Of a stretch of 64,000 bases of DNA, positions 1,275 to 28,780 are shown piece by piece. Under the pieces are notes generated by a model, which did not search any database, was not told the origin of the DNA, and saw only the letters and a program-made list of their open reading frames with translations. The translations under genes were made by a program, and so were the position numbers. The stretch spans positions 3,019,001 through 3,083,000 of the forward strand of contig NC_134684.1 in assembly GCF_024713945.1 (NCBI RefSeq). The letters are read 5' to 3'. Position 1 is the first letter of the stretch, and each line of letters starts with the position of its first letter. The DNA comes from Dermatophagoides farinae (lineage: Eukaryota > Arthropoda > Arachnida > Sarcoptiformes > Pyroglyphidae).

Positions 1275-4200
1275 TTAAAACAGTAAATCAGAAGCGGTTG
1301 CTGATCTTGAAAATGGTACCGTATCTTCAATGCTTGCCGGTTTGATTGGTATTGGCCTTAAGCTATCAAAATCACTCATACTATCACAGTGATCATTATC
1401 ATTATCATCAATATATTGTTGTTGTTGTTGGCTTTGATTGGAATGATTTTGGGCAGTTTTCGTTACACCCAATTCGAATGTAGATTCTCCGGACATTTTT
1501 GATGGTTTATATGATGCAAGATTACTGTTGCCTATTTTATAAAAAAAAATTGAGAAAAAAAAATTAACAATAAATCTGCGATACAACAACAAAAAAAAGA
1601 ATTACCAGTTGGAAATGATTTTTTCAATACACCATTAACAGTGTTTGCACCATTGATCGATTGTGATGCTACTGAATCGGATTTAGTCAATGTATTGACC
1701 AAATTGGAAACTAAATTTGATTTTTTTATCGGTTCAACATTTGTTTTATCCAGTTCATCACCATCATCATCATCTGTATCATCATCATCATCATCATCGG
1801 CCATTGGATATTCGAATATGGGCGGTCGTGAATGATCAAAACGTACAGAAAGCTAAAATGAATAAAAAAAAATGGGAAAAAAATGATGAATAAAATTAAA
1901 GACTTATTGCATTACAGAGAAAAAAACATGTATAGAATAATAATACACTATCATCTTAACCTGAGAATTGACATTGTAATAATAATAATAATAATCATCA
2001 TCACATTCATATTGTAAATGATAGTAATTATCAAAACAAAACGAACCATTAGACCATGACATGTGTAATGATTCAAAAAAAAACAAAAAAAAAATCTTGA
2101 CCCAAACAATGTTGATGATAATTATCAATGAAAAATGATGATATCATCATTATCATTTATCGTTCCATGTTCAAACAAGTGAAAGTGTTGTTGAAATCAA
2201 ACAAAACAAAACAAAAAAATTTTAATTAGTCCGGTATTTTCATCTTGATGATGAAGATGACCACGTATCAAAATATCATATTCATTCATCCATCCTTTTT
2301 CTGTGATTTTTATTTATTATTTCATTTGAAAAATCCACCATTGGTGTGAATGTGGATAATCAAATGGTTGCCATTATCATCAACAATCTTGGCAAGATGA
2401 TCAGAAGAAGAAGAAGAAAAAAAAAATATCAAATCCAATGATGATGAATGAGAGTGAGGATAATCTAAAATTATAAACAAAAAAAAAAAAATCCAATCGC
2501 GAATCAAATCAACCACACTCACACACACACACACACACACAAACCAATCGGGCGTCGTCAACAACAACAACAACAATAAATATGTTTTTTTGGTGCTTGA
2601 TTATGAAAATGATAATCAAAATGGATCAACACACAGCAACAACAACAACAGTATATATAAAGATGAGAGAGAGAGAAAAAAAAACATCAAATCAATCAGA
2701 AGCTTAAAATGGAATATATACTAGCGATCAATGAAAAAAAAACAAAACAAAAATCGGTTCACATTGACTACATGCACCACATCGATCTATCTATATTTGA
2801 AAATCATTTGTTCCAGTTCAATTTCTTTTTTTTTTTTTTTTGATCATCTCCTATTGTTTGATCGTTTTATTGATCACATGTCTTTTTTGGATTTTGAAAA
2901 AAAAAAATTTTTCATTTTTTTTTCTTGGAAGAAAAAAAAAATTGAATTGAAATTTTTTGCTCTCAATGATTGTGATGATAGAGATGAACAACAACAATCA
3001 ACACCTAATACATCATTGAACATTGGTTGCAAAAAAAAAAACAACAAAGAAGCAGTACTTGGACATTAGCATAAAAAAAAAATTTACAACAGCAAAGTAT
3101 TCACCATCACAATGATGATGATGATTGTCGACAACAATTTCAAATGACTTTCAAGATGATGATGATGATGATGGCTAAAAAAAAAATTTGACTTGTCTAG
3201 AAATTTAAGCCAAAAATGACTGAATAAGGAATCCAATTTTTTTTGTTGTTGTTGTTGTTGAAACAACGTTGTTTGTTCCAAATTTTGTTCTTTTTTAAAC
3301 AACAATCATCATCATCATCATCATCAGTATTTCAACGTAGAAAATGAAATGAAACTAAATCAGGCCAAAGAGTTTTTTTTTTTGTTTTGAAATGGGAGGT
3401 CATATAATGACGATGATGATGGTGATCATCATCATCATTTCATTGGAATTATACATATATTTTGCAAAGTAAAACTGACCATTATATAAATGAAAATTAT
3501 AAAGAAAAAAAAACAATTTTTTTCATTTTCCATATTTTGAACATATTTGGTATTCAATCATAGTCACTGTATTTCAATTTTTGAATTTATTCTCGGTAAG
3601 AAGAGAGAATATTATGGGTGAAGCAACATGTTTTTTTTACGTATGTAAAAAAAAAATTGTCAAGAACAATGACCAATATTGGTCATAAAATAAATATGTG
3701 AATGAAGCAAACATACAAATAAACAAATTATCCACAACACACACACACACAAAAGTATACACGTACAAGAACATGGTCAAATAAAAAATGATGGCAACGA
3801 ATTTTTAATCCAGTCTCGCGCGTGTGTGTGTGTGTGTGTGTGTGGATTATCATAATTATTATTATGATATGGATCCCAAGCAAGCAAACAAAAACAAAAA
3901 CAAAAAAAAAAACACGTGGGCTACCGTGAATGTAATGTGATGATACCAAAATGGCCCCTTTTAAAATATCTATTAAAACAAACATAAGAAGATTATTTTC
4001 ATATTTTGTTTTCTTCATCATCATTTTGATCATGGTCAAACAAAAAAAGTGGCATGGAGAATGAGATAACGAAAAAAATTTTACCAATCCTATATGGTTG
4101 TGATGATAATTGATGATGAATCGAAATACAACTAGGTCATTACCGTCGTCGTCGTCGTCGTTGTTGTTGTTAGGCTTGTCAACCACATTGTGCTATTTGA

Positions 4201-7200
4201 ATGATTGAAGAATCTATTCTTCCACTATCTTTTCTCATATAAATCTAAAAAAAAACAAAAACAAAATTGTTCATGAGAAAATCTTTTTCCTATTTGACAA
4301 TGATTGATTTTGGGAATTGTATTTGTAAATTTGAATAGTCGGATGGATGGAAGAGTGAAAAAAAAATTGAAATCAAATTTTTTTTTTCATCTTTACCATC
4401 TTCAAATTTCGGATTTAGGTCAACCAATATATATTATATCAATCACAAAGAGATGTTTTTTTTTGTTATATCTTTTTTTTCAATTTGTAAACTTTGAACA
4501 CATTTAAATTCAATTATTCATACACAACAATCAACAACAACATGAAAATCAATTTGGTGCTCGTGTCTGTGTGCGTGTGCTTGAGGTCAACAAATCTATC
4601 GAAAAATCGATTCACCGACTTTTTGATCCATGACTAATGTCATCATCATCATCATCATCATCTCTTGATGATCCATGATGCAAATGGATGTTGACCGTTA
4701 AAATTGAATTTTCAATTCAGTTTCTTTGATCTTGAATGTCTTTGCTGAAGTGATTACAAACAAAACAAAACAAAAAATCTGAAAATCATTTGAAAACATT
4801 TGAATCACTTACATTTTTATTACGTTTCATCATCAATGATCCATTACTGATGATTATATTTTCACCAATAAAATTAATACCACATGGTGGTGGAATTTCA
4901 GTCATTCCTGAATAATTACTATCATCTTCATCATCCGTATCATCATCATCATCATTGTTGATTGAAGTGGACAAATGATTATGATTTCGATTACCATTAC
5001 CATTTACCAATTCTTTTATAATACGTTTCGGTATCGGTTTAGCACCGAATGGTGTTGGCTGTATGGCAATATTTGGCTTTACATTTTTTGTTGTACGAAA
5101 ATCAAATACCATCGATGAACAACCATTCTGTATGGTTGATGATTTAATTGTAGAATTTGTAGCAATCGTTGATGATGAGGATTTTAGATTTGTTGTTGAC
5201 CACAGTGTACTTTTTGTTGTTAATGGTGATGATGATGATAAACTTACAATATCATTATGGCCATTTGTCAATGAATTTCTATGTTGTTGTAACAAGCTCG
5301 GTTTCAATGTTTTTATCGGTTCATCAACCAATGATGGTGGTTCATGACTATTGATTTTATTATTTGATGAGATCGATGATAATTCTTTTCGGTCATCATC
5401 ACTATTACTAGCTTCCGATTCTTTTGATTGTACATTTTTCACAATTGTTGTAGAATTAAACGGGCGAATATTGGCCACAGGTTTTTTTGAATTTGTCTGT
5501 ATTTTTGGATTCATTGAGGAATCGTTTTTTGTAACCAATGAATCAACAACATTATTATTGTCAATTTTTTCATTATTATTTTCAACTGAATCATTTTCAT
5601 CATAATGTTGACCATTTACAGGAAATGATTTGTCGTTATTTTCTTGTTGTTGTTGTTGTTCGTCATATTTTTGATTATAATCATTTTGAATGGCCATGAC
5701 GACATTATCATTAATGTTGTCAATCTTTTTGTTTTCATCATCATCATCATTATTATTATTATTGTTGTTATTGTCGTCATTGTCTTCAAGACCGGATATA
5801 TCAATGACCACACTATTGTTGTTGTCTTTTTTCGTTTGGCTATCATTATTATACAATAAATCACTTGTTGCTGTTGAATTGTTTAAATCACATAATAACG
5901 TTTTTGTCTCTGTTGTTGGAGTTGTAGATACAAGTTTCGGTGTATTGGATTTTTTTCCATTTGATTTTTGTAGATCATTTGTTACTGATGATGGTGGTCT
6001 AGGTGCTTGATAATTTTTACTACTACTAGTACTACTAGTAGTAGTAGTCAAACTTTTATTTGTCGATACACGATTCGATCCAACAACATTGTTGTTGGTA
6101 CCAACAACCACCACCACCACCACCATTCGATCGATTGATTATCGTTCCATTTACATTTCGATTCAATGTTAATTCTATGATTATGGATGAGAAAAAAAAA
6201 TGGAAAAAAATTAAAATAGATTCGATTTTCAATGTTAACAACAACAGCAGCAACAAAAGAGAACAAAAACCAGATCAAAATACCGGGTCAACAGAAAAAA
6301 ATGGGACAATTTTTTTTTTTTTTCATCACTCGATGAGAAAATTAACAAACATCATGTCTATTTTTATATGCCATATGCTAATTCATTTCCTATTCGTTAC
6401 TCTTTTTTGCTCCATTGTCATTTATCAAGCAAAAAAAAAAAAAAAATAGAATAACCCACCTGTGTGCCCACCATACACAAACATTACTTAAAACAATTTC
6501 CTTTTCAACATACAACTGTTGCAGAATTTTCTTTTAACTTTTGAAAATGGCTTTGTGAAATGAAATGTCCGAAAAAGAAAAATATCTCACGAATTATGTG
6601 TATGTGATTAATTTTTGGTTTTTATTTGAATTTTTTTTTCGTTTGTTTGTTTGTTTGTTCGTTCGTTGAATCGAATTGTTGTCTGAGCAATTTATTTTTC
6701 GCCTACTTTTTTTTGGAATTTATATATAAAAAAAAAAAAATTCATCGTTACCACGATGCCATCACATTTGGTCACACATACACACAGATACGATGGACTA
6801 TACACACACACACTAAATGACAGGTTGCGTGAGGAAATTCAATTTTCAATATAGAAAAAAAAATAAATCATGAAAAATAAACAAAAGAATCGAATGAAAT
6901 GGATGCAAACACATAGTGTGTGTATATATATTTGTGAGTTGAAAAAAGTGGAAAAAACCATCACCAAAAACTCCCATCATAAGAAAAAACTTCCATCTCA
7001 TCATCATCATCATCATCATTGTCCATCGGTCTTATTGAATGACCAAATAAGAAATTGGGCTACTTATCCAGCCATGCATGTATATGTGTGTGTGTGATTC
7101 TAAATCAGTAATTTTCCTTTCTTCAATTTCATTTCATCAATTTTTTTTCTAATTCAAAAAACATTTTCAGATCGTGATCCACGGTGGAGAAAATTGTTTC

Positions 7201-8586
7201 AAATTTTTTTTTTACTGGCTCTTTTTTCTTCATTCTTTAATTAGTTGTTTGTGTATGTGTGTGTGTGTGATTATTAGTTATTACAAACAAAAAAAAATAC
7301 CATCATGACCAAATGATGATGATGATGATATCATCGATTGATCTCTCTCTCTTGGAAATAAATTTAAAATTAATTTCATTCATTTTCTCACCTCTGTCTC
7401 CCCCTTACCCCAACCCCCAAAAAAAATGATTGCTACCATACATTATTTTCAAACTGGTCATTTTCTTAAGATTATCATCAACAAGAAAAAAAAATAAAAC
7501 TTAACGTTGCAATTATTACATTTTATTTTATGATTTTGTTTGTTTGCTTCCGATACGCATCTTTATCACAGACAGATCGATCATCACTATTGATCGAAAC
7601 TAGTGAACAGGAGAGAAAGATGGTAAGAAAGCAGAGTTGAAAACAACACACACAAAGACTTCCTGAATGAAAAATTTTTTTTGAAATCAAAAAAAAAAAG
7701 ATGAAAAACCCATAAAATTTTGTGAAATCCTGGGGAAAAAAAAAGATTTCATTCAAAAAAAAAAAAAAAAAAAATAATCCACAAGGACGTTATCGTCTCT
7801 GATCGATATAATTATTATCTTTCCATCATTGTCAAAATTGTAAACAAAATCATGTTTTTTTTTTGTTTGAAATTTTAAATTTTAAAACTTTTTTTTTCAA
7901 TTAAAAAAAAATAATTTGATGAAAACAAACAAACAAACGATTAGAAATCAGTACATATTTTTTCTTCTTCTGCTTGTTTTTTCTTGGCCATGGATGAGTC
8001 TTGGCCAGAATGAAAATTGGAATTAACGAATTTTAATGTTTTTAATGCACATGGAAAATGTTCATTATTATTACTTGTTTGGCCTTGTAAACGAATATCC
8101 ATTACAATTCCGTTTCATTGTGTTCATTAATTCAATTTTGGATTTTTATGTTGTTGTTTCGAATCGGATTTTGACTTTGAATTGGTATTTTCGTATGTTG
8201 TTTTTTTTTATTTTGTTCATAATTTCAAAACATTCAGTAAAATCATTAAAAGTGAATGAATGAATGATGAATGCTTCTGTTTGTCATTTCAACAATTGAT
8301 TATTATGAAGATGATGATGATGACAAAATATCCTTGAATAATTCAATTCATTTCTGAAGAAATGAAATAAGAGAAAACATTGGAAAAATTTTCATTAGAC
8401 TACTACCTGGAAACAACAACAACAATCTCTGTTTCATTTGTTTCATCAACACATGTATTATGAATCGCCCACACACACACACACACACACACACGCAGCC
8501 AACAAGCTATTATGTAAAATTTTGTTATTTCAAATACGATGATGGCACCCCAATCTATCTTTTACATCGATTCGAATGAATATACC

Positions 8587-8619
<33 letters not shown>

Positions 8620-10222
8620 TCAATTATTTTGCCTGCCATCATTGACATCAATGTCATCGGTAAGAAAAATCTAACGGGAAAAAAATGATCAATGATGATC
8701 CAATAATAGCCAGAAACAAAAAAAAAACAAAAAAAAATCCTTTTTTTCTCTTTTCATCATTTTTAATCATCTAAATAATGAATAAGGAGAAAACGACGAT
8801 GGTGATGATGATGATGACGATAATAATCGACCGATAAACCGAAACAAAACACACACACACACACACACACTAAACAAAATGAACAAAATAGATCGTGAAT
8901 AAAATTCGTATAATTGAAATCTTCTTATTACCTGCTTATTATTATCATTGATCGAAAGATCAATCAATCAAATCAATGGATAAAATGAGTGAGAGAGAGA
9001 GAGAGAAAAAAAATTGATCGTTTTGCAATGAAAACAACAATTGCAACTCAAAAAAAAATCTCATCAATTAACCGGATGGATTTTTTCACATCATCATCAT
9101 CATCATCATCAAAATAATAATCATCTGTCTAGATGTAACAGTAACAGAATGAGTTCAGGCCAAAATGGAATCCTATTCATATGACAACTATTTTCAACGA
9201 ACAAACAAACTAATTAAAACACACACACACACATATTGCAAACTACCAATAAATAAAAAAAAATCGATTATAATCGAACAGAACGGAAAACAAAACAAGT
9301 CAAATTAGATATAATGTAACAAAAAGGTGGCCGAATTTTTCTTTTTCTATTTCATTTTATCAAACTTTTGATGATAATTCGAACGATTCTAACTGTAATA
9401 TAAATGTATTATATGTAAATTTCATGAATTTGAATAAATTACCTGTTGATTCACGTTGTTGTTGTTGTTGTTGTTGTTGCTGCTGTAAACGTTGTTTAGC
9501 AATAATATTCGATGTTTGTGAAAGATTTTGTCTAGTTGCTATTGCTGGTTTGGTCACGGCATTCGTTTTGGTCACTGTTTTTGCAATTGATCGTGATGAT
9601 GTTGTTGTTGTTGTGGCTACACTATTAGATGATGATTTATTCAAAATAATTGGCTTTCGTACATTCATCAATGATGACGATGATGATGATGATGATAATG
9701 ATTTTGATGGATTTATAATTCGTTGATTAGAATCACTAATTGTTTCGGATGTTGTTGAAAGACTAGATGTTGACTTATGATGATGATTAGCATTATTATT
9801 ATTATTATTATGATGTTCAAATATACGTTTAACTGTTTTTACTGTATCCGGTTTCGGTAATTCATTTGATGATGATGATGATGATGATCGTGTTGTCATT
9901 GTCTTTGTTTTTGCTGAAATCATTGTTGCCATTTTCGATTGTTCTGGTGATCTGATACGTATGTTTTGTTTTTCAAGAATATCACTATTTTCTTGTTCAC
10001 TATTGTTGATTATCGTTGATGTTATCAGACATTTATCCAATAAATCAGAATGATTTTCAACAATTGGATTTGTAACATGTTGTTTTTGTTGAATGTTGTG
10101 TAAACAATCATCATCATTGTTATTATCGACAATATTTGATATATTTGATTGTTTTTGTTGTTGTTGTTGTTGTCGCTGTTCAAGTTGTCGAGTTTGAGTT
10201 TCTTCAAGAACTAGTTTGTTAA

Positions 10223-10255
<33 letters not shown>

Positions 10256-13200
10256 GATCAGCGCTACAATTTGTTGTTGTTTGTAAAGCAGTAGTATTAT
10301 GATCAACAACTGGATTCAAATTTAAAGTCGAACTAGTTGTTGACGCTAAAACAGAACAAGTATTATTATTGTATATGGCTGCTGTTAATGATGTCGATGA
10401 AATCATTGCCAAATCTTTTACTACATTCGTTGTAATTTGTTTTTCATCATGATCATCAATGAATATTTGCCGTTGCTGAATATTATCGTTGTCGAAGTCG
10501 TCGTCGTCATCATCGTCATCGTCATCGACATCAGCTTTTTTATTTTGTTGTTTTACTAGTTGATTATCATTATCATCATTGTCGCTTTTTGCCCGATTCA
10601 GATTAAAATTATCTATGTGTTGTGATTTCAGTGAAAAGATAAAAAAAAATTTACAAAGATTCGGGAATTTAGATTTGTATATATATGAAATATAAATTGA
10701 TAATTTTAATCATCGATTTGATTTGAATGGAAGAATAATCAATGCCCATCAATCGATCAAATCAATTTATTAAACCAACCTTGTTGTTCATGATGTTGTG
10801 GATGATCAATGATTGTCAGTGATGATGATGATGATGATATCGACGTATCCTCTTTCAATGTTAATGATGGCAATGTTGAAGATTTAGAATAATCACTTTC
10901 ATTCAATAATTCTTGATCATCATCATCAACATCATCGTCATCATCATTTTTGGTTGATTTATTCAATGTTGTTGATGATAATGTTTCAGCACTTTTTGCT
11001 CGTTTAATATATGGCTGTGGTGTACTTAATAATAAAATATTTGAAGTCGCTGTCGTTGTTGATGATGTTGACGATGATAATGTGGTGCTATTTGTCGATG
11101 TTTGTAATGATTTAATATTATTGCTCGCCAATGAAGTGGTCGTCGTCGTCGTTGTTGTTGGTGTTGGTGTTGGTGTTGTTCCATTCATGTATCCATTGCC
11201 TGAATATGATGATGATATTGTAGTAACAGAAGTAGCACTATTATTATCATTATTCACACTAACACCATTTGGAATTTCATTTTTTCCTATAAAATGATGC
11301 TGTTTCATTGTTGTTGTATGAAGGTAATGTTGAGGGTGTTGTCGGCTACCTGTTTCATTCTGCTGTTGTTGTTGCTGTTGCTGACAATTCATTGATGATG
11401 AAATGGCCGCAGGTGATATTATTGTTGTCGTTGTTGCAATATTTGATGATAAAGTAGTTGCATTATTGGACATTAATGACGATGATGATGATTGACAATG
11501 ATTCGTATTGCTAGAATTGCTATTATTATTATTATTGCACAATCGTCCACTATTCATCATTGTTTTTGTCGTCGTTACCGTTGATAATGATGAATTGATT
11601 CGTTGTGGTGGTGGCGGTGGTGGTGGTTTTTTCAACTGTTTTTGTTGAACATTTTCAACAAATTTCTGTACAATATTTTTCGGATATAATGATTTTGTTG
11701 TTGTTGTTGTTGTTCGATGATTTAAATTTGTTGTTGAATACGATTTATTCACTATCGGTGCTGGCAGTAGTGGAGGTTGTGTATCATTCTTTTTATAATT
11801 ATTTGATTGTTGTGGTTTCTGATGATAATGTCCATTGGTCGTCGACACCTGTTGTTGTTGTTGCTGCTGCTGTTGTTGTTGAATAAATAATAGCTTTTTC
11901 TTCGTACCATTCACCATTTGATGATGATTATTATTATTATTATTAATTAAACGTTTATTCACGGCGGTTATTGACTCTAGTTGTTTTTGTGGTTGTTGTT
12001 TATTGTCCGTTGTTTTAATCATTGATTGTTGTTGTTGTTGTATTTGTATTTGTTGTTTAAATTGTTCAAATGTTAACTCTTCTAAACTTGAACAACGTTT
12101 TATTAATGTCGATACATTAATACTTGAAAGACATTTTTTCTGCAATCGATTCGGTTTTTGTTGCTGTTGTTTTTGATTTGATAATGTCATAAATTTATGA
12201 CGTAAACGATGTACAATTCCTGGTCCATATTCATAATCACCACTACTACTATTACTACTATCACCATCTGTATCTAATGACCAATCGATACTTTGTCCAC
12301 TACTACTACTACTGCTATTTGTATTCGAATCATTTGAAGAATAATAATATGATGATGATGATAATGAATCAGAATTTGATAATAATGATGATACTGAAGA
12401 TGGACGTTGTTTATTTGTTGACAATTTTGTTGTTGTCGTCGTAGCTGATGAATTATTATGGAATCCATTTGTTGTTGATGTTTTACTATTTATGGCCATA
12501 CCACCATTTGTATAATGTGATCGTTGAAAGGTAATTTTACCATTACTATTTATATTGGTTCCATTACGATGATAATGTCCACCACCACCACCATTGGTAA
12601 TATTATTACCATTCAATACACGTGTAACGGATTTTTCATCTACCATTTTTTCCAGATAGTTATCGTTTTCAATAGTTGTCGTTAATATACAAGGAATGGT
12701 TATAAAATGTTTACTATATTTATCACACAAAATAATCTTTGTTGAATGTAAAACGGTGGGCAATCGTATTGATTGATAGCGAATCAAATGTTTGTTGACA
12801 ACTATTACAACCTTTATCGTTTATGATTTTTAAAATTGAATATTTCTTATCATCATCATCATCAGCATCATTATTATACGACAAGAATGTTTGAAAAAGT
12901 TCATCCAACTGCAACCGATGTTGCTGTTGTTGTTGTTGTTGTTGTCGTTTCTGATGTGTTGCTATTTCGACAAACACATCATCACCATCATGACCATATG
13001 TTTGTTCATTATTTGTTTGATGAATAGCCGATGATGATGATGATGATGGCAAATGAATTTTTTGATTTGTATCAATAGTAGTAGTAGTAGATTTTAAATA
13101 TGATAAACGTAACCGTATTACCAGAACGATTCCGTTACTGTTGTCCTCTTTGTCGTCGAGGAATCTGGTTCAAATTGAAAGAAAAAAAAACAAATTCAAC

Positions 13201-16200
13201 ATGTGAGACATTTAAAAATTAAAATACGCATGTGCGTGGATGTTTGTTTGATTATTATCATTCTTTGTTGTTGAATGGATTCGCTTGGTTGATTAAGAAA
13301 AGTGGTAATATTTTTTTTTCTTTTTATCTCTATCTATTTAGTCTTAATGGATTAATGGGTTTTAAATGATAAAAATTTGATATTTATAAAAGTAATAACC
13401 CAAACAGCAACCTAAACAAACAAAAAACGGCCAAAATGACAACCACACATACTTGTTGAATGCAAAACAATGGAAAACAATATATATATATAAATGGTCA
13501 ACCTGTTGATATCAACGTATGTCGTGTAGAAAAGGCCGGATAATCTGGATCAAATGTGGTATAAATGATATAAGAAGATAAATTGCTGCTAGTGAAGAAA
13601 ATTTTTTTTTTTTGCTGTTGCTTTCACTACAATTTTTTACTTTATAAAAAAAAATTTGTCCATATTTTCAAATGGTCGATAATCATTTCGATGATGAACA
13701 AACAAAACAAAAAACAAAACAAAAAAAAAAAAAAGATTTTAATGAAAATTGAATGTTTTTGTTTTCCTGTAACCAAAAAACATTCCTATATATAAAATAA
13801 AATTAAAACTGAAAATAGCATCAACAATTGATCTTTGATCGGCCAATCAACCGAATATATAGTAGTAATGATAACAATGGATGAAATGAATGAATGAATG
13901 AAAATCGTCTTAACATTCATTATTATCGGATGATTGTCGAATATAAAGATTGTCGTCCATTAGTGTTTGTTGCTAGTTAAAACGATTATTTTTTTTTTGT
14001 CCTAATCAATTGAGGAAACTGAAATCAATAAATGATTGACTATCCTTAATGATTGTAAAATGATCAATACAATTCATCATCATCATCATCCTAATCATGA
14101 TCAGTAGAGACAATAATCATCATTTTTTTTTTAATCACATTAATTTGGATTCATGAGTTAAATACAATATAAAACAAAACGGGAAAAACAAAAACACTGA
14201 AAATAAATGATTATTCATTGAAACAATTCATTTTGGGCCAGCCAAAAACACATTGTTTGATTTTTTTCTTTAATTCAAATGATGAATATTTTTTTATTTA
14301 TATATATTGATCCTTGAATCTGATTGAATGAAGGATTGCCGATACAAATGTAACAATCATTTATCTCGTTGTTTTTTTTAAAATGGATTCAGATTGTCAA
14401 ATCTGATTTTTATTATTATACCGTTGTCATATTCAATGTTTTTTTTTTTGCATAAAGAATGATTTGACAATTTAACCATGGAGCACCAAATATACACAAA
14501 AATAAATACAGCACACACACAACACAACACACACACACACATAGAGACCAATGATTCTGGATGATGAAAAAACCAATATTTGGTAAAATCACTGATGTGA
14601 CTGGACATGTTATTATTATCATCATCATCATCATCAACAACAACAACATCGACCGACGAACTCGATATATCTGCAAACAAATTATCTTTCGATATAAATA
14701 TTGTATGCATGTATAATACAACAATTGAATTGAATAGTGGAATTTTTTACAGTATAGTTCTCTATGACAAATCATCATCATCATCATCATCAAAATGGAG
14801 GGAGGATCTCACCTGGATTGCACACATTGAAAACATTTGAATTATTATTATCATGAAAAAGGAAAAAAAAATTGTCGAATAGATCATCATTATCATCATC
14901 ATCATCATCGTCATGAAGATGAGAATGGTGATGATAGTCATTTGGTTTTTTTTTATCATATACAAAAAAATGAACATACAAACACACATCACATCATCAA
15001 CTATCATCACGATGGTTACCTTTCCATTATTATTATGATGATGATTCATATTTTTGTGTGTGTGTGTGTATATGTTCCAACAGTAAAAGTCTAAAACAGA
15101 CACACACACACACATAAACACGAATACAAAGATATGAGAAGGAATCGAATGCATCATTCATTCATTTCATCCACCTTTCTTTCTATCATTGTATATATTA
15201 CGATGATGATGATGATGGTTATGAGCTTCGTTTGTTTTTGTTCTGTTGTAGATTGACAAAAAAAAAAAAACAAAAAATATAATGCCATGCCATGACAATA
15301 ATAATACAGAAGATGAACAAAAAAAAAAAAAAAACAGAACGTTTAAACCGGATAATCCATTTGAAATGAACAAATGATCCAAACATTTAACAATTGTTTG
15401 TGTGTGTGCAATCTGAAATTGTAACAACAACAACAACAACAACAACAACAGGATTCAAAATAATAAATTGTTGTCGTTGTCGTTTTTTTATCAATGATAA
15501 TGATCACAAACTGGTTGAAATGTCGAAATTTTTTTTTTTTGATATTTTTCCCGCATAATCATGATTTTTTTTTTTGATCGATCAACCAAAATAGTCATGT
15601 TTGTGCCTATTTTCAAAACGGTTAATTTCATAGGAAAAATATTCATGACCATCATTTATTGAATGATTATTATTCAAACAAGTGATTCAAAGATTGATTT
15701 ATCAATATTAAAATAACGATATTATGATAATTGAATATGCGTGAAATGGTTATCATCATGTTCAATTTTTTTTTCTTCTCATTTTCATTTATTTCAGTCT
15801 CCTATCCAATATATAATCTGATCGATCATTATTGATTTATCTATATTGATCCTTTTTTTTTCTTCGGCTCATTCATTCATCATTCTAATTTGATTGTAAA
15901 TCTAAAAATATACAATGATAGATTATCCCCACATTCAAATATCAATATGGCTAATGCAACAGGTTGTTGGTCTGGTTTTTCTCCTAAATCCATTGCCTAA
16001 ATCGATGAATATTGGCTATATTCAGATGAACAACAACAACAACAACAACAATTACAATAGACTATGGAAATTGTATTAAAATAAAAAATAAATTAATCAG
16101 AGGAAAAAAAATGACATCCAACCATCATTCTGGTGATCAATTGATTTTTTGCAGATCAAAAATCGATATACGATCAAAATAACTTATAGTTTATGGGGTT

Positions 16201-19200
16201 TAACAAATAATAAATCATTCGAATCATGTATCATCATCATCATCATCATGGTTTGTTTATTTCATTTGTTTGAAATAATAGTAAAACAAAAAATTGGGTC
16301 GCCAAATGACCAAACAACAACAACAACTGCAACAAGAACCACATCAGCAGTAGATTTTGATGGTTTTTTTTTTAAATTTCGATGATGGATGCGGTCAAGG
16401 ATGAAACAAAAACCAAAACAGAAAACCAACCGTTCGTGACGTGACCATTGTCGTGATAGGTTGAAGACAAAAAAAAATAAAATAAAATAACAAACAAACA
16501 AACAAGCCCAATACATCATCATCATCATCAGATGTATGAAAATTCAAAATCAAGATCATAAATTGTTAAGATCATCATACACAATTCTTGAATGCTATGT
16601 TTTACCTTTTATTTTGGCTAATTTGTTTAAGAAAGAATTTTTTTTATACACCTATGTATTTGATCAAAAGTAAAATAAAATATAATCTGGTACCAGTCTG
16701 CTACCAGTTTTTTTTTTCGTTTAATACCATCATCACATAAAACGGATTGATTCAATCAATCATTTTATGGTACACATTGTTTGTTAAATATCTGGACAAA
16801 TGAAAACTGAAAAATTTTTTTTTTCTTCAAAAGTTCATTCATTTATTTCATGGTAATAATTGGATTTAGGTTTTGCAACCAGCGAAAACAAACAACAACA
16901 ACGTGTATCAATGTTTGTTTGTTTTTTTTCTTACTGGTTTGATTTGTGAGAACTTTTTTTTTTTTTTTTGGTTAAACTAATAAAATTGTGTACCTAAGCA
17001 TACAAGTATGGTATGTGTTCATTTGTAAATTATAGCAAATATATTTCTTTTAACCCAAACTTGACTTTACGTTATAATAATGATATTATTATTATTATCA
17101 TGATGATGAAAAAGAAATGAGGACATTTTCAATGGTGGTTGTTTTAGAAACAACAACCAACCAAAAAAAAAAACTTTGTCACTCTGTGTCTGAGTGGATT
17201 AAGAGAAAAAAAGAAAAAAAAGAAAGAGAAACAAGAGCTAAAGTCATTTGGTGGCTGATGGATCGTTATCTGGATAATAATAATAATGAAACAAAATGAA
17301 ATTAACAAACACACACACACATGCACATGTACATTGTACAATGATAAAACGAAACAAAACAAAAAAAAACACCAAATAAAATTGGTGCCATTTTCATGGT
17401 GGTTAGTGATTCGTTAATTTCCTTTTTCAATCATTTCACAATTTAAAAAAAAATGAATACAGAATAATAATCCCGGTGTTTAATTCAAAATCATACAAAC
17501 AATCGTACAAATGGTGATGATAGCACCATGTATCAGAATGTTTCAGAAAATTATTTTTCTCATTACCATTATATTGAAACTTACATTTCTTTGGATTTGT
17601 TTTCCGGTTCTATTTGATAATAATGATTTGCAGCTAAACATTCATTACATTCATATGAATCAAATTCAATGATGTAATCATCGATTTGATTATCAATTAT
17701 CGAAATTTGATTATTATCATTATTATTTTGACATTGATTATGTTTATGTTTGGTATTTGTTGCAGCTATTTCATGATGACCGAGGTTATCGTCGATATTG
17801 ATGGCAGAATTTGATGAGATTTTTTTCGATTTCGTTGATTGATGATAATGTTGATGATAATTAAATTTATTTCCACATAAACTATTGTCGTTATCGTTGT
17901 TGTTGTTGTTGTTGTTGTGGTGATGTTTATAATTATCGTTTGGCTGTTTATGATAATCAAATTTATTTATATCATCATCACCATTATTATTATTGGCACT
18001 GATTGAATTTTCAATCATAACATTATCACCACCATAATCATCACAATTATAAGGACAACATGAATGGCGATGATCTATTCGTATTAGATTAGCCAATTGT
18101 TTTATCGTTGGTGTCGTCGTTGTTGTTGTTGTTGTTGCTGGAACAGTTTTGGTAAAATTTTGTAAAATCAACGACAAAGATGACGATGACGATGAATGCA
18201 GTTGCTGTTGTTGTTGTTCATTCGGCCGTTCGTACCAATCTCGGTGGCAGCTGCGGCTGTTGACTTTTAATGGCAACGATTTTGATGTCGATGGTAACCA
18301 TCGTTGTGATTGTTGTTGTCGTAGTAGTGGTGATGATGATGATGATGATGATGAAACATCCACCGTTTCAATGAATTTTTCTATGTCATCAATGTCTGTC
18401 TTATTTTTCCGTATGAAATCAACAACAACAGGTTGTCGCCATTGTTGTTTTGCTTTGGTTATTGCCTCTACTTCGGGCCATAACTCCACCTCAATGTTCT
18501 CTACATTTTCATTTTGTTTCTGTTGGTTATATTTCCGTAATAATAATGGTGTTTCGTCGTCGTCGTCGTCGTTGTCGTCGTTGACGAAGACGACTTGGAA
18601 ATTTTTGCTTTTGTTATCATTATTATTGCCATTTTCTTTGGGATGGCCAGATTCATTGTGTTGTTGATCAATGTTGTTATCGTTGTCTTTATTGTAATGG
18701 TCCAATGCATTTGATAACTTTGAATTATTATTTTGAACAAAAAAATTTTGATGATGGCCACTACTACCATTTTGTGGCTTCTTTTGTTGTTCATATAATA
18801 GATCCTGAATAAATGTCCGTCGATTTTCATTCAACAATGATGATGATGATGATAGTGGTAGTGGCTTCACAGGTTGATATTGTTTATTCTTAATTTCAAC
18901 TGACCATGGTAGTGGACAATCATGTTTTGTTGAAATTTTGATCATTGTTTCTGGTGGTGTTTTAATTTCCATTTCATTACATTCATTTGAATATTCAGAT
19001 TCTTCTGGCATTTTTTCTGTTTGATTACTATAAATAGCCAAAAGAAAAAAAAAAGAAGAATTGAGATTAGATTCTTTCTCTCATCTATCATAAGTGTCAA
19101 CCAAGTTCATTCATCCACATATTCAAACAGAATCTGGTTCATAATTTTAATAGCAACAACAACAACAACAACAACAACAAAATTGAAAATCATCCATCCG

Positions 19201-22200
19201 TTAATCATCAAATGGCTATAGTTTAGAATTTATTCACATTCACATTCACATTATTCTGCAAAATGGTCAAATTCACATTGAAATGGCATAATATCCTGTA
19301 AAATAGAAACCAATGTCTATGAAAATTCTAATTAACCTTTTACTGCATCAATGATTCTTTATCATTTCATATTTTTGATTCATTTTTTTTTCTATTATTC
19401 TCATTGAGATTATAATAACTTTTTGTCTATTCATTGATCCATGGATTGTTTTTTATTTTGCACATTTATGGAGATCAAAAACAAAAAAAAATCTGTCCAT
19501 TCAACATGATATATATATATATGTCATGTACTAGATCCTTTCTAGATTTCACTGTATTTGTGAATGTCACTCAATACAGGATTCTAGGGTGCAGCTGATG
19601 GGGATTTTCATGACACTGGAAATGAATATTAAGTCGCCAACCTCACTAATAACAAGGAAATTTATTTAACGATTAAGGATGAATGTTCGATAAATTATTT
19701 TATTTATTTGTGGATATAAATCATTCGATTGAAAATACAATAGATTAAATAGAATTTATATGATGAAAGTGTCGATTAGTTTTGTGAAAAGAAAAGGGAT
19801 TGTTGAGTCGAATGTTGAAGATGAAATGAGATGGTCAATAAATTCTATAGAGATAGAATTTATCGAAATGCGTCAACCATGGAGGTCGAAGAAAGTGATT
19901 AGTCGAATATTGAAGATGAAGTGAGATGGTCAATAAATTCTATAGAGATAGAATTCATCGAAATGCGTCAACCATGGAGGTCGAAGAATAATTAGTCGAA
20001 AATTGAAGATGAAGTGAGATGGTCAATAAATTCTATAGAGATAGAATTCATCGAAATGCGTCAACCATGGAGGTCGAAGAATAATTAGTCGAAAATTGAA
20101 GATGAAGTGAGATGGTCAATAAATTCTATAGAGATAGAATTCATCGAAATGCGTCAACCATGGAGGTCGAAGAATAATTAGTCGAAAATTGAAGATGAAG
20201 TGAGATGGTCAATAAATTCTATAGAGATAGAATTCATCGAAATGCGTCAACCATGGAGGTCGAAGAATAATTAGTCGAAAATTGAAGATGAAATGATGAG
20301 ACGATCTAGCCGATGGCGATCTTGGTATTTAGTCGCTCGACTTCAGCTAGACGGGCACTCGAGTTGGATTTTAATAGTGATCTTGATGCAACAAGCACTA
20401 AATTCCAAATGAGATTCGAAGGCCTCGATTGGCGATTTGCCAATCGTTTTTATACTTTCGGTCGTTTCAAATGACATTTCGGGACAGATGGTTGGCAGAC
20501 CAGGTGCGGACGCTGTCAGTTTTGACAGGAAACCCATTGTTCCATTGTAACCAAGAAATCATAATGGGCTTTTGTTCCATGTTGTCCAGGTGTGTCCAAT
20601 TCCATTGTTGTTCGGGCAACAGTTTGATTCATTGCCCGTCAGTCCTTTGTTCTCGATGCCAAATGTCGTTGGTCAAGCGGATGACCATTTGTTGTTTAAG
20701 GATGACTCTCTTTTGTTCTCACTGATTTATGGCTAGGACTCTAGGTCCCGGTATCAACAGATGTCGATAATCCTGGCAGATATGTTGGATGGAAATATCT
20801 CACGGTCTCATTAACAATAGACTTCATGGCATTTCCATGCGTTTTGATTGATTATCGTTATAGCCAGGTGTTGGTCGGTTGGTACGTATCGACTCGTGAA
20901 CAATGAACAGATTAAACTGCTCCGTCCGAATGATAGCCAACCATTCCATTGTTTACGATCCATCTGTTGCTTAAAGAAAATTGACGGTTCCACGGTTGGG
21001 ATCCGTTCATAAATCAAGTGATAGAGGCCAAAGACATGACATATATATAAAGACAAGGACAAACCATTTTACATTAGAGAATAAATGAGAATGAATGTCC
21101 GACTTGTCAATTTATCAAATATAGGGTATAATAATAATGCATGCACTAATAGGAATGTGATATGTAAAGTAGTATGAAAAAAAGGCCGGAAAATATCTAT
21201 TTACAACAACAACAACAACAACAACAAAAAAAAAAAGAGAAAAAAAAATATTGTCGGTGACAGGTGAGTAATTGATGTGTGTGTGTGTGTGTAAAATGTG
21301 TATATATGTAAGAAATATAAATGGAAACATTGTTGTTGTTGTTGTTGTTGTTTTTTCATTTTGATTACCATAAATTTGAATGTTGTTGAAATGTTGTTGT
21401 CATTGATGAAATTTTCTTTTTTTCACCATTATCAGGATTATCATCATCATCATCAACATCAACATGGATCGATGACTTTTTATTTGTTACATTGTGATCC
21501 GTTGAAATAATCGTTGATGTTGTTGTTGTTGTTTGATCTTGATCTTGATCAATATTGGCATTGATCATCATCATTGATTTTGATTGTCGATGTTCATGAT
21601 GGCCAGAATGATAAACAGGTTTTATATCAGGTTCTATATTGATAGGTGTGGGGGGTGGTGGTGGTGGTTAGAAAGACAAAAAATTTGAGAAATTCTAAAT
21701 CATTTATTCATTGTTTATCATTTTGATTGATCGATAATCGATCCATATCTAAAATATTGGCAGCAACATAATTTTGTTTTGTTTCAACGAGAGAGAGAAA
21801 GGGAGGGAGAGAGAAAAAGAATAAAAGGCTACAGGCTTTAGGCCAAATAAACACATTTATTCTATTGTTTTATTCCAAAAAATCAATTGTTCAAATCTTT
21901 ACAATCAATATGAATGAATCATAAGATTTTTAATGTCCTGAAAATGATGATGATGATGTTTTTTTTCAACCAAACGATGAATCGATGACCTTTTTACGCT
22001 CAATTGAACATATGTCGATGATTGGTGGTTGCCAATCGACCAATTCTGAATTTTTTTTTTTATTTTATTTCTATTCATGATTCCTGCATTTAGCCCGTCC
22101 AATCATCTATACAATATGATTTTATTTTATTGTGATAAAATTGGAATTGATTTATGGTATTCACCACCACCAACACGAATGATGAATATAATCACTGTGT

Positions 22201-22789
22201 GGTGACCAAATAATCAATCAATACATGTATTGAGATCGATAAAATCAATAACAATCAATATATTATCAATTAATTTGAAAAGAGGCGAAAAAAAGATCAT
22301 TTGGTAATAAGTAGAGAAAAAAAATGCTGAAAAATGAACAAACAAACAACAAAAAAAAACAGCGAAAAGAAAAAAGAACTAAATAAACTAGAACAAAATG
22401 GTTAGTGTCAACATTAAAATAGAATGAATGGAACAAAAAAAAAGCGGTAAAAAAAATTTTTTGTTCCAATTTGCATCAATTTTTTTTTCTTCAATTGTTT
22501 TTCTCCATTACTGACCGTTTAATGTTGGTGAATAACCAAGTGGATGATGATGATGATGGACCTTTATATTGTTATCATCACTATCATTATTTGAATTGTT
22601 ACGAATAATTGACAATAATTTTGTCAAAGATTGTTGTCGTCGTCGTTGTTGTTGTTGTTGTTGTTGATGATGATTGTTTTTGTCTTTGTCTTGTTGTAAT
22701 TCATGAAACCATGGTGGTAATGATGATGATGATGATGATGATGGTGATGATGGGACACCATTCTCATCGTTGATTGTATTTTCATTCAT
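1275..22789 (-). CDS. Giant taperin/phostensin-like protein, nine coding exons
   Basis: Exons (minus strand, 5' to 3'): 22789-22516, 21633-21369, 19027-17585, 13164-12880, 12713-10780, 10612-9443, 5984-4813, 1852-1606, 1531-1275. They total 7,047 nt, an uninterrupted 2,348-residue frame. Most donors are strong (gtaagt at 17584 and 4812) and every phase agrees. The 12880/12713 join and the 5984 acceptor are the weakest. The protein is mostly Asn/Ser/Gln/Asp/Thr low complexity. Ordered islands are PPWFHEL (residues 25-31), GIVHRLRHKFMTLS (about 920) followed by a SSLEEL box, and a block at about 2160-2200 containing INFIGENIIIS, then LSVRFDHSRPPIFEYP, then an acidic run. The last block resembles the taperin/phostensin PP1-docking segment (KISF-type motif, then TFEYPSE and an acidic stretch). 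SVRF would be the RVxF-type PP1 site. Known family members bind PP1 and actin-rich structures; that role here is inferred. Human taperin is about 700 residues, so this one is roughly three times longer. The start is the first ATG, at 22789. Some exons could be alternatively spliced. Confidence 0.6.
1853..4812 (-). other. Intron of the taperin-like gene
   Basis: About 3.0 kb between the exons ending at 4813 (donor gtaagt) and starting at 1852 (acceptor tttag). It holds (CA)n at 2516-2541, (GT)n at 3817-3844, several (CAT)n runs and a GTC/GTT run at 4142-4172. No internal exon is supported. Confidence 0.6.
3817..3844. repeat. (GT)n microsatellite
   Basis: A pure GT run preceded by CGCGCG, inside an intron of the taperin-like gene. 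A shorter CA run lies about 80 bp upstream, so the two could pair in RNA. Confidence 0.9.
5985..9442 (-). other. Intron of the taperin-like gene
   Basis: About 3.5 kb of AT-rich, microsatellite-laden DNA, including (CAT)n at 8589-8620 and (CA)n near 8470 and 8852. An alternative acceptor at 6175/6176 is in phase with the upstream exon but runs out of frame through a (GGT)n tract, so the acceptor at 5985/5986 is preferred. No coding sequence recognised. Confidence 0.5.
8589..8620. repeat. (CAT)n microsatellite
   Basis: About eleven perfect copies of the triplet. It is typical of dozens of such runs in the window, which occur in exons as Asp/Ser/His codons and in introns and intergenic DNA alike. 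Confidence 0.9.
13165..17584 (-). other. Large intron of the taperin-like gene
   Basis: About 4.4 kb between the donor gtaagt at 17584 and an acceptor at 13165/13166. The flanking exons join in phase (AT plus A). The content is homopolymers, (CAT)n, (CA)n and (GTT)n. I see no internal exon, though another small in-phase exon cannot be excluded. Confidence 0.55.
19805..20295. repeat. 93-bp tandem satellite, five copies plus a partial
   Basis: The box gatggtcaataaattc recurs with starts near 19830, 19925, 20018, 20111 and 20204. This gives units of 95 bp (first) then 93 bp, nearly identical from the second copy on. Each unit contains AATTCTATAGAGATAGAATT, a perfect hairpin with 8-bp arms and an AGAG loop. 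In the first copy the arms extend to 11 bp (19838-19863). Units also share a GTCAACCATGGAGGTCG segment. A truncated sixth copy ends near 20295. The repeat period is not a multiple of a codon-sized coding motif and no long open frame runs through it, so it is non-coding. Confidence 0.9.
20296..21095. mobile_element. Possible decayed transposable element or solo-LTR remnant
   Basis: About 0.8 kb directly after the satellite has more balanced composition and lacks the microsatellites that fill the rest of the window. Near its right end are a TATATATAAA box (about 21039-21048) and, some 35 bp on, an AATAAA signal (about 21082-21087). That spacing recalls the promoter and poly(A) part of an LTR. 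I found no convincing terminal repeats, target-site duplication or protein domain; the short open frames (20429-20725 plus, 20811-21062 minus) match nothing I know. Confidence 0.3.
21634..22515 (-). other. First intron of the taperin-like gene
   Basis: The donor gtcagt follows 22516 and the acceptor with a strong pyrimidine tract (CCACC-rich) ends at 21634. Phase 1 joins G to AA to give Glu. The content is AT-rich with a GAGA run near 21790. No gene is seen in it. Confidence 0.65.
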
Positions 22790-26195: not shown

Positions 26196-28780
26196 ATGGC
26201 ATCAATCGATTGGAATGACGAAACTATTGTTATTAAAGATAATAAAGGCCAAAAAATTCATTTATTCAATGATGATCAATATCGTTCGGCCATGTTGGAA
26301 AATCTAAACATGTTACGTAAGAATCGACAATTCTGTGATGTCATTCTACAGGTAATGACTATTGTTTGAATCTATTAATAATAATAATTAATGTTCATTT
26401 TTCATGTCCACAGATTGGAACCAATCATCAAGACATACATGAAATATATGCCCATAAAGTTGTCTTGTCCAGTTCGAGTACTTATCTTTTTGAAATGTTT
26501 ATGAATCATGAATATCAGCCAAACATCACTAACAATGGCAACATGAATGGTTCATTACAATCGATCAATACTTTAAATGTACCGCAACAATTTCGTTTGG
26601 TTTCCGCTACAAATTTTGAATCCGATCCCGAAGCATTCGGTTTGATCATCGATTATGCTTATACGGCTACATTGAAAATTCCTGAATCAAAAGTACGAGA
26701 AATTTATTCCATTGCTTCACGATTGAAAATGACCAATGTGGCAAATAAATGTGGTCAAATTATTCTTTCAATGTTATCGGCTAAAAATTGTTTGGAAATT
26801 CGTAATATGAAAGCTGTTTTGAACGATGTTAGCCTTTTGCAATCAATCGATGTTTTCATACGACAACATTTTGAACAAATAGTCGAATCATCAAGTTTTA
26901 TCGATTCACAATTAACACAGATAAAAATTGAATTTTTATTAAATTCAGAACAAGAAGAACATTCCATCAATGATCGTCATATGCTTAATGAAGTTTTAGA
27001 ATGGATTCGTAGTTCATTGGAACATGATGTATTCGATTTGGATCGATTCAAAGATGGAAATACAATGTTAATGTTACATTATGATAAAACAAGAAATGAA
27101 ATTCAGGATTGTTGTCAAATTGAATCCAATTCACCGGAAGAATCAGAAATGATTGAAGATTATAAAAAATTGAACAAACGAATTGCTTTAATTCGAAAAT
27201 CATTGTCACAGGACAATATACCGAATGGTTTGGTTAAATCGTCTGTTCCATCATCAAAACCAAGGCAATTCCTTTTTACAAGATCAGATTCCGAATCATC
27301 ACTCTGTTCATCGGCAACAGATGGCATTGGTGGGACCGGTGACGACGATGTTCAAGATCATCAACACGATTGGAAAGTATTGGCCAATTGTCGATTAGGT
27401 TCAGGTAATCATACACTAGTTGGCTTGGTATCGATCACTGCTGGTCAACTTTGTCTATTGTCCATCACATTACGAATCAAAGAATCGACATCCAAACAGA
27501 ATAGCCTAAGTGAAAGTGGTCAATGTGATCAGGATGATATTACACAACAATATTGTCTAATACCACCTATGAGTTCGGCAAGATGTGCTGTTGGTACGGC
27601 CAATTTCAAGGGAAAACTTTTTGTTTGTGGTAAGTTTTTGGTTAATTTTCATTTGCAAATAACTTTTAATTCAATTTAATATAGGTGGATATGATCGTGG
27701 TGAATGTTTGAAAACTGTTGAACTTTACGATACGGTTGAGAATCGATGGCAACTATTGCAACCAATGCAAGTACCACGTGGCCGATTTTCAGTTGCGGTT
27801 GTTGATAATTGTGTTTATGCTATTGGTGGTTGTGATGGACATGATGAATTGAATTCGGCTGAAGTTTATGATAAATCACAAGGAGAATGGAAATCAATAC
27901 AGAGTGCACCGGTTGCACGGTCAAATGCCGGTGTTTGTTCAATGAATGGAAAGATCTATGTGATTGGTGGTTGGAATGGCAATCGTGGAATGACTAGATG
28001 TGATAAATATGATCCACGAAATAATCAATGGACAGATATGGCACCGCTTAATATTGGTCGATATCAAACCGGGTGCTGTTCATTGGATTCATCTACAATC
28101 TATTCGGTTGGTGGATGTGATTCGTGGTCATGTTTGAATACTGTTGAACAGTATTCAAGTTATACTGGCCAATGGCGTCTTGTTGCGCCATTACAAACGG
28201 CTAGACGTGGATGTGGTGTTGCATCCATTGGTGGTAAAATATTTGCCGTCGGTGGACATGATGGTATTCATGCATTATGTTCAGTTGAAATCTATGATCC
28301 AGAAGAAGATCAATGGACCTATGGTAAATCAATGACAATGGCTCGTGCTAATGTAGGCGTTGCTGTTATTGATAATCGACTTTATGGTAAGTTATTATAA
28401 TTATATATGGAATTTTTTACTAAATCAAAATGCCTATTTCAGCTGTCGGTGGATTCAATGGTAAAGCATTTATCAATACAATCGAATATTTTGACATGGA
28501 AAATGATCAATGGACAACATCGGTTACAATATTGGATTCAATTTGTTCAGTAAATTATTTGCTGAAAAATGGATGTGATAATGATAAACAAGAAGAAAAA
28601 GTGAAAAAAATTGACACAAATGACGGTGATTCGATGAAAGATACAAATAATAATAACAATAATAATAATAATCAAATAAATTCGAAGAATAAATTTGAGA
28701 AAAAAATGTCTGGCAACACTTCATTCAATCAATCATTGGGTTCGGTTATGGAAGTGGAAGAAACATTAAAACAGGCCTAA
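26196..28780 (+). CDS. BTB-BACK-Kelch protein, IVNS1ABP (KLHL39) orthologue
   Basis: Four exons: 26196-26351, 26414-27629, 27685-28386, 28443-28780, with short introns of 55-62 bp and gtaatg/gtaagt donors, making 803 residues. The BTB domain (about 35-150) starts at LRKNRQFCDVILQ and carries an Asn-rich insertion after FEMFMN. BACK follows at about 155-265 (WIRSSLEHD). A low-complexity linker leads to the DWKVLANC segment, then six Kelch repeats (about 460-720), each with a GG doublet and a later Y/W (VCGGYDRG, AIGGCDGH, VIGGWNGN, SVGGCDSW, AVGGHDGI, AVGGFNGK). The order, the conserved linker segment and repeats such as SWSCLNTVEQY match the vertebrate IVNS1ABP family better than other KLHL proteins. 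That protein binds and stabilises actin filaments and can serve as a CUL3 adaptor; that function is inherited by inference. The start is the first ATG, with an A-rich leader. The C-terminal 80 residues are Asn/Lys-rich. Confidence 0.9.

Follow-up and report, generated by a model that had tools for sequence, protein, structure and literature searches.

A long dust-mite gene whose product is likely a diverged relative of taperin

We analysed a 64,000-nucleotide stretch of the genome of the dust mite Dermatophagoides farinae (contig NC_134684.1, positions 3,019,001 to 3,083,000; hereafter the window), in which a candidate gene on the minus strand runs from an ATG at 22789 to a stop at 1277-1275, its nine-exon join giving 2,348 codons and one terminal stop. 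Judged from its sequence, the product is likely, though not proven, to be a diverged invertebrate relative of taperin (TPRN), and not of phostensin (PPP1R18). Taperin is a vertebrate actin-bundling protein required for hearing, and the title of a 2012 article by Ferrar et al. reportedly calls it vertebrate specific. Our searches of the openly licensed literature, where 'taperin' also matches 'tapering', showed no invertebrate taperin among the papers listed; automatically annotated gene databases may already hold such names. In keeping with the species, one locus of this genome, L045, is identical to a Der f 21 allergen chain in the PDB at 111 of 113 aligned residues, both differences falling at the start of the chain. 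If the kinship is true, taperin would not have originated in vertebrates as a hair-cell protein, and its older job at actin structures could come to light in an arthropod.

Resemblance of the two protein ends to TPRN

Comparison with human TPRN supports a resemblance between the two ends of the mite protein and the two ends of taperin. The mite tail carries, in the same order as TPRN, a hydrophobic-x-F block (LSVRFDHSRPPIFEYP, 1852-1805 on the minus strand, at the start of exon 8) that aligns to TPRN, FEYP, an acidic run, and then, in exon 9, LxSYxP (LASYKP, 1520-1503), SDFxS (MSDFDS, 1379-1362) and a C-terminal L-x-F (LLF, 1286-1278). A C-anchored alignment of the last 195 mite residues with human TPRN scores 44.5, a value reached by 0-1 of 1,000 shuffles of the mite tail and 0-3 of 1,000 shuffles of the human sequence over four shuffle widths. 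None of 155 C-termini of other open reading frames (ORFs) of at least 100 codons in the window and fetched loci attained it (top score 27.5), in a control that was not composition-matched and left out L007 and L008, which are the gene itself; nor did any of 272 artificial C-termini slid along the same protein (top score 22.0), and reversed-sequence alignments scored -13.5 and -12.5. When only the part of the tail downstream of FEYP is used, the score is 34.5, which shuffling the mite sequence attains in 3-12 of 2,000 cases and shuffling the human sequence in 3-5 of 2,000, and local alignment within the last 330 residues was matched by 5 of 1,000 shuffles. An earlier note, made from the letters of this DNA, had called the protein taperin-like; the post-FEYP part formed no part of its case.

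At the other end, LPPWFHEL in exon 1 (22720-22697, starting at residue 24) fits the pattern [LIMV]PxWx3[LIV], which is common to both human N-termini and appears as LPxWxxx[IL] in TPRN. This pattern, defined after the protein had been seen, occurs anywhere in 186 of 20,000 whole-protein shuffles and starts within the first 45 residues in 16 of 20,000 when the first 90 residues alone are shuffled.

The same tail comparison bears on the possibility that the gene encodes not a taperin but a pointed-end capping protein of the phostensin type. Both human proteins belong to the PP1 block family, PF13914, and the mite block shares the F...YP core with PPP1R18; likeness to PPP1R18 does not extend beyond the block, however, the tail scoring -0.5 against it and 44.5 against TPRN. 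In addition, the leucine-array actin-binding motif of phostensin, given as L(X)7(D/E)(X)6L(X)2(E/D)L(X)3L(X)2(K/R) (PMC3546673), is absent from the mite protein. We regard a phostensin as highly improbable, and since the tail scores diverge so sharply, the earlier 'taperin/phostensin' label can be narrowed to its TPRN half.

Several results weigh against kinship with taperin. The letters of the human TPRN and PPP1R18 sequences used here were checked only by their Pfam matches. These matches were strong (1.5e-35 and 6.5e-25 to PF13914; 6.3e-32 and 4.9e-28 to PF13916), so these letters do belong to the family. The motif and block tests, the gap costs and the anchoring were all chosen after the protein had been seen. 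In Pfam scans of single exons and joined pieces, whose filters discard most matches weaker than about 0.1, no piece of exons 7-9 had a listed match to PF13914 (cut-off 25 bits) with an E of 10 or less, and no piece of exons 1 and 3 one to PF13916, the family of the taperin/phostensin N-terminal region (cut-off 23 bits). Searches of the mite's own genome (62.4 Mb, 22 contigs) with both profiles were also without a match, but the controls were equally silent, so this result is not informative. An hhalign comparison with a two-sequence TPRN/PPP1R18 profile gave a probability of 0.5% and an E of 0.11 over only 16 columns. Taken by itself, the PP1 block was equalled by 28 and 31 of 1,000 shuffles, and its SVRF departs from the strict RVxF motif, having no K/R at the first or second position before V. 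Less constrained alignments were weak: local alignment with the N-terminal part of TPRN was equalled by 176 and 236 of 500 shuffles (40 and 60 of 300 under heavier masking) and alignment of its C-terminal part with the whole protein by 9 and 17 of 500 (10 and 12 of 300). A free-gap chain of both parts was equalled by 25 and 16 of 500, its best path passing through neither LPPW nor FEYP, and the C-terminal part alone by 49 and 33 of 500. The phostensin actin-binding consensus was missing in relaxed as well as strict form. Aggressive low-complexity masking deleted FEYP itself, leaving weak scores.

These results could mean that the gene encodes an unrelated, fast-evolving, disordered mite protein whose FEYP, LASYKP and LPPW recall taperin by chance, having been picked out of a long and biased sequence. 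The lack of a profile match, the missing RVxF and phostensin actin motifs and the weakness of unordered or free-gap alignments would all fit such a protein. An ordered, C-anchored tail alignment that is rare among shuffles, other C-termini and reversed sequences would not, nor would a likeness that persists in the half after FEYP, which had played no role in the earlier taperin call. On balance we think a chance origin rather unlikely and favour a diverged taperin. The taperin-like call is upheld by the order of the C-terminal tail and by the N-terminal LPxWxxxL, not by a profile match, the evidence that the earlier note had itself proposed to seek for its C-terminal islands: no PF13914 match was found and hhalign was not significant. 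Among the islands that it had singled out as conserved, PPWFHEL corresponds to the N-terminal motif and SVRF...FEYP to the tail, but GIVHRLRHKF (12220-12191, exon 5) is the best local match to the N-terminal part of TPRN without statistical support, and SSLEEL appears in no reported alignment.

We also looked for relatives of the tail. In the same genome, a 115-residue query (exon 8 together with the end of exon 7) hit its own two exons (1.3e-49 and 5.2e-15); the following match, in a list of 17, lay at 5.1e-4, so that no strong second copy of the tail emerged. That match, L009:1501-1629, reads NGSKKMKKSNNVSIRFD, a stop and then an acidic run and echoes the PP1 block of exon 8, with no block intron and no FEYP; it was judged probably a chance hit. 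Another candidate, L010, is an acidic run. A PDB sequence search with a 115-residue tail piece yielded 10 matches, all weak (E 0.54 at best); the three displayed are driven by acidic runs. In viral and prokaryote collections, a 202-residue tail drew 68 and 246 pattern matches, among which no relative was confirmed, as expected for an animal gene.

A candidate PP1-docking block and a possible scaffold

The earlier note had described a putative PP1-docking block as spared by microsatellite expansion. In mouse TPRN the PP1-docking motif is KISF, at aa 624-627 (PMC12139522). PP1 regulators more generally are described as filling two pockets with the V and F of RVxF, with a hydrophobic pair usually 5-8 residues further on, and as being helped in binding by basic residues before the motif and acidic residues after it (PMC10731240); regulators combining RVxF with such a pair are said to include PNUTS, PPP1R15A/B and neurabin/spinophilin (PMC12185105). 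The mite block reads KRNKNLSVRFDHSRPPIFEYP, in which V-x-F is followed directly by Asp and, six residues after F, by an IF pair, within the 5-8 spacing of that class. In contrast to these regulators, and to the KISF of mouse, the basic residues that precede the V of the mite SVRF are confined to positions -4, -6 and -7. The claim of a spared block is thus half right: the V-x-F, the Asp and the IF pair are present, and strict RVxF is absent from that place. Docking to PP1 is plausible from these letters, but would probably be weakened by the absence of a basic residue next to V. Elsewhere in the protein, KITF in exon 5 (12538-12527) is the sole [KR]x(0,1)[VI]x[FW] site, where 0.84 or 0.82 would be expected by chance; allowing Leu in the scan adds KKKLLF, as two overlapping matches, against 1.31 sites expected in all.

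Mouse TPRN bundles F-actin, is 749 aa long and has a predicted C-terminal PDZ ligand at aa 744-749 (PMC12139522). The mite protein is 3.06 to 3.13 times that length, rich in S, N, T, D and Q, and has no Pfam match listed; its C-terminus, SDLLF, would resemble a PDZ ligand by alignment with the human EPALYF. We propose that the locus encodes a diverged member of the TPRN lineage, some 2,300 residues long and probably disordered over much of its length, which, by kinship, would act as an actin-associated scaffold, the role proposed for TPRN. Its tail V-x-F-D-x5-IF may lie across the RVxF and hydrophobic-pair sites of PP1, the acidic run and then the SYxP and SDF segments would follow in the order seen in TPRN, and the carboxylate of the C-terminal L-x-F could bind a PDZ partner and thereby anchor the phosphatase at an actin structure linked to a membrane. 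The stretches rich in S, N, T, D and Q might serve as spacers that tolerate microsatellite slippage while the product stays hydrophilic. A fuller evolutionary scenario strikes us as doubtful: the TPRN lineage would predate the arthropod-vertebrate split, and the dust-mite form of about 2,300 residues would have lost the basic residue of the PP1 anchor, kept the TPRN tail and PDZ-like end, and used exon 4 as an alternative last exon to make an 807-residue form without the phosphatase and PDZ ends.

Coding evidence and gene model

The gene is real and its exons look coding, since they are free of A/T runs and dinucleotide arrays and since whole-codon scores favour the proposed frame. A/T runs of at least 8 number 0 in 7,238 exonic bases and 95 in 14,277 intronic bases, where the intron rate would predict 48 in the exons; for dinucleotide arrays the counts are 0 and 31, with 15.7 expected. 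(For these counts exon 4 was taken to 12812 and the short piece 6174-6102 was included.) Whole-codon scores, from a model trained on 8 of 14 chosen loci of this genome (6 were skipped, with stops in frame) and with the introns also serving as background, ranked the proposed frame ahead of the other two forward frames in each of the 9 main units. In 8 of these 9, all but exon 2, the score also exceeded that of every one of the 37 intron windows. Whole-codon scores did not support coding in the short pieces 6174-6102 and 12811-12726. Synonymous-codon scores were uninformative, so that the separation of exons from introns comes from whole-codon scores only.

The earlier note had reported nine exons joining in perfect phase, giving no boundaries; we inferred these from its length of 2,348 residues. 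Splice sites were ranked among 1,001 GT and 598 AG sites with matrices built from 13 introns, which 21 exon pairs yielded (8 pairs gave none), and the ranks are rough because the matrices rest on so few introns. With start, stop and length as above, the nine-exon model could be rebuilt in full. Phase agrees across joins 1-2-3, 5-6 and 7-8-9, whose donors rank 4 to 22 of 1,001 and whose acceptors rank 41 to 70 of 598, exon 3 excepted. Exon 1 (22789-22516) is an open frame with the start codon, a donor acg/GTCAGT of rank 15 and a codon score that none of the 37 intron windows equals; exon 2 (21633-21369) is in phase with both neighbours, with an acceptor of rank 42, a donor of rank 22 and a weak codon score of -0.005. 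Exon 3 (19027-17585), an open frame of 499 codons with a coding score of 0.096, has an acceptor of rank 381 and a donor aat/GTAAGT of rank 20. Exon 5 (12713-10780; coding score 0.112) has an acceptor of rank 307 and a donor of rank 9, and exon 6 (10612-9443; 0.148), in phase with it, an acceptor of rank 43 and the first-ranked of all donors, cag/GTAATT. At the 3' end, exon 8 (1852-1606) has an acceptor of rank 70 and a donor of rank 4, and exon 9 (1531-1275), the last and the seat of the C-anchored TPRN alignment, an acceptor of rank 41.

The claim of perfect phase is overstated at two steps and, more mildly, in the middling acceptors of exons 3, 4 and 5. Exon 4 (13164-12880 in the nine-exon model, with 12812 as an alternative end; coding score 0.073) is in phase with exon 3 through an acceptor of rank 224, but the donor after 12880 ranks only 138 of 1,001. 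Among the in-phase GT-AG pairs examined, none offered a convincing donor from exon 4 to exon 5, and phase agreement is cheap, because 50 stop-free in-phase pairs exist for this step alone. At the exon 6 to exon 7 step (exon 7, 5984-4813 in the nine-exon model, with further candidate 5' ends at 6034 and 6174; coding score 0.143), the model uses an acceptor, ahead of 5984, of rank 417 among 598, and that at 6174 ranks 36 but is in the wrong phase. A start at 6174 restores phase only with an extra 67-nt intron, 6101-6035, whose donor ranks 707 of 1,001; introns of 50-76 nt are frequent in this genome (9 of the 13 found), which does not decide the matter.

Read through, the frame of exon 4 reaches a TGA at 12725-12723, just ahead of the exon 5 acceptor, for a product of 807 aa; exon 4 may thus be an alternative last exon. 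Together with the lack of a good in-phase donor from exon 4 to exon 5, this stop could mark the boundary between two head-to-tail transcription units, exons 1-4 and exons 5-9, the second with its own start (for example the ATG at 12646-12644), in which case no 2,348-residue protein would exist. Only 76 bases separate this stop from that ATG, however, and one gene could hardly end and the next find its promoter in that space, unless transcription began at an internal promoter situated further upstream. A direct in-phase join of exon 3 to exon 5 is also available and, combined with the alternative exon 7 start, yields 2,294 residues. A short and a long form produced by alternative splicing would account for the same facts. 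Two units would, moreover, place the LPxWxxxL motif of exon 1 and the TPRN-like tail of exons 8-9 in different genes. We consider two units unlikely and retain a single gene.

Homopeptide runs, triplet repeats and the surrounding window

The protein had been described as mostly homopeptide, which is wrong: runs of at least 4 hold 307 of its 2,348 residues (13.1%), the longest being 11, although S, N, T, D and Q account for 51% of it. Nor is it shown that microsatellite expansion inflated an ancestor threefold: the length does exceed that of mouse TPRN by such a factor, yet the runs explain only about 300 residues. Single-codon runs, 24 of the 40 runs of at least 5, are a sign of recent slippage. 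Triplet arrays of at least 4 units cover 10.5% of exon bases and 4.7% of intron bases. The earlier statement that the same triplet repeats fill exons and introns holds for the repeat classes but not for their orientation. AAC-class arrays lie in the CAA/AAC/ACA sense as opposed to the GTT sense 14:0 in exons and 3:10 in introns (Fisher P 3.4e-5), so that exons carry Gln, Asn and Thr runs and not Leu, Val or Cys runs; the ATC class has no orientation bias (P 0.33). Coding sequence thus filters microsatellites in this gene, and selection on repeat slippage becomes testable through the AAC/GTT class.

When 52 open frames of at least 250 codons in the window and fetched loci are ordered by run content, the four from this gene take ranks 1, 2, 4 and 5; the remaining 48, one of which, in L013, ranks third, have a median of 1.0%. 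The gene is therefore extreme in run content but not alone. Homopeptides are likewise not confined to it within the window, because a minus-strand frame at 52508-53677, which contains LDL-receptor class A repeats as well as stretches rich in Ser, Thr and Asp, has 4.6% of its residues in runs.

The intron between exons 2 and 3 contains a 93-bp tandem array (19806-20296; 5.3 copies, 97% match), for which a genome search with 19800-21060, of a kind that skips common words, found no second copy. In the same intron, 20400-21000 falls in a more GC-rich 2-kb bin (0.354) and holds a 107-codon plus-strand frame without a Pfam match at E 0.001; one short stretch elsewhere in the genome (C9:420626-420704) matches about 20869-20946 at 97%. 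Scans of the window with Rfam, at the gathering threshold, and for tRNA genes gave no match. On the plus strand, 26339-28780 encodes an ordinary neighbour, with frames that match BTB (26339-27679) and Kelch (27663-28400), followed by a frame with an Asn run (28424-28780).

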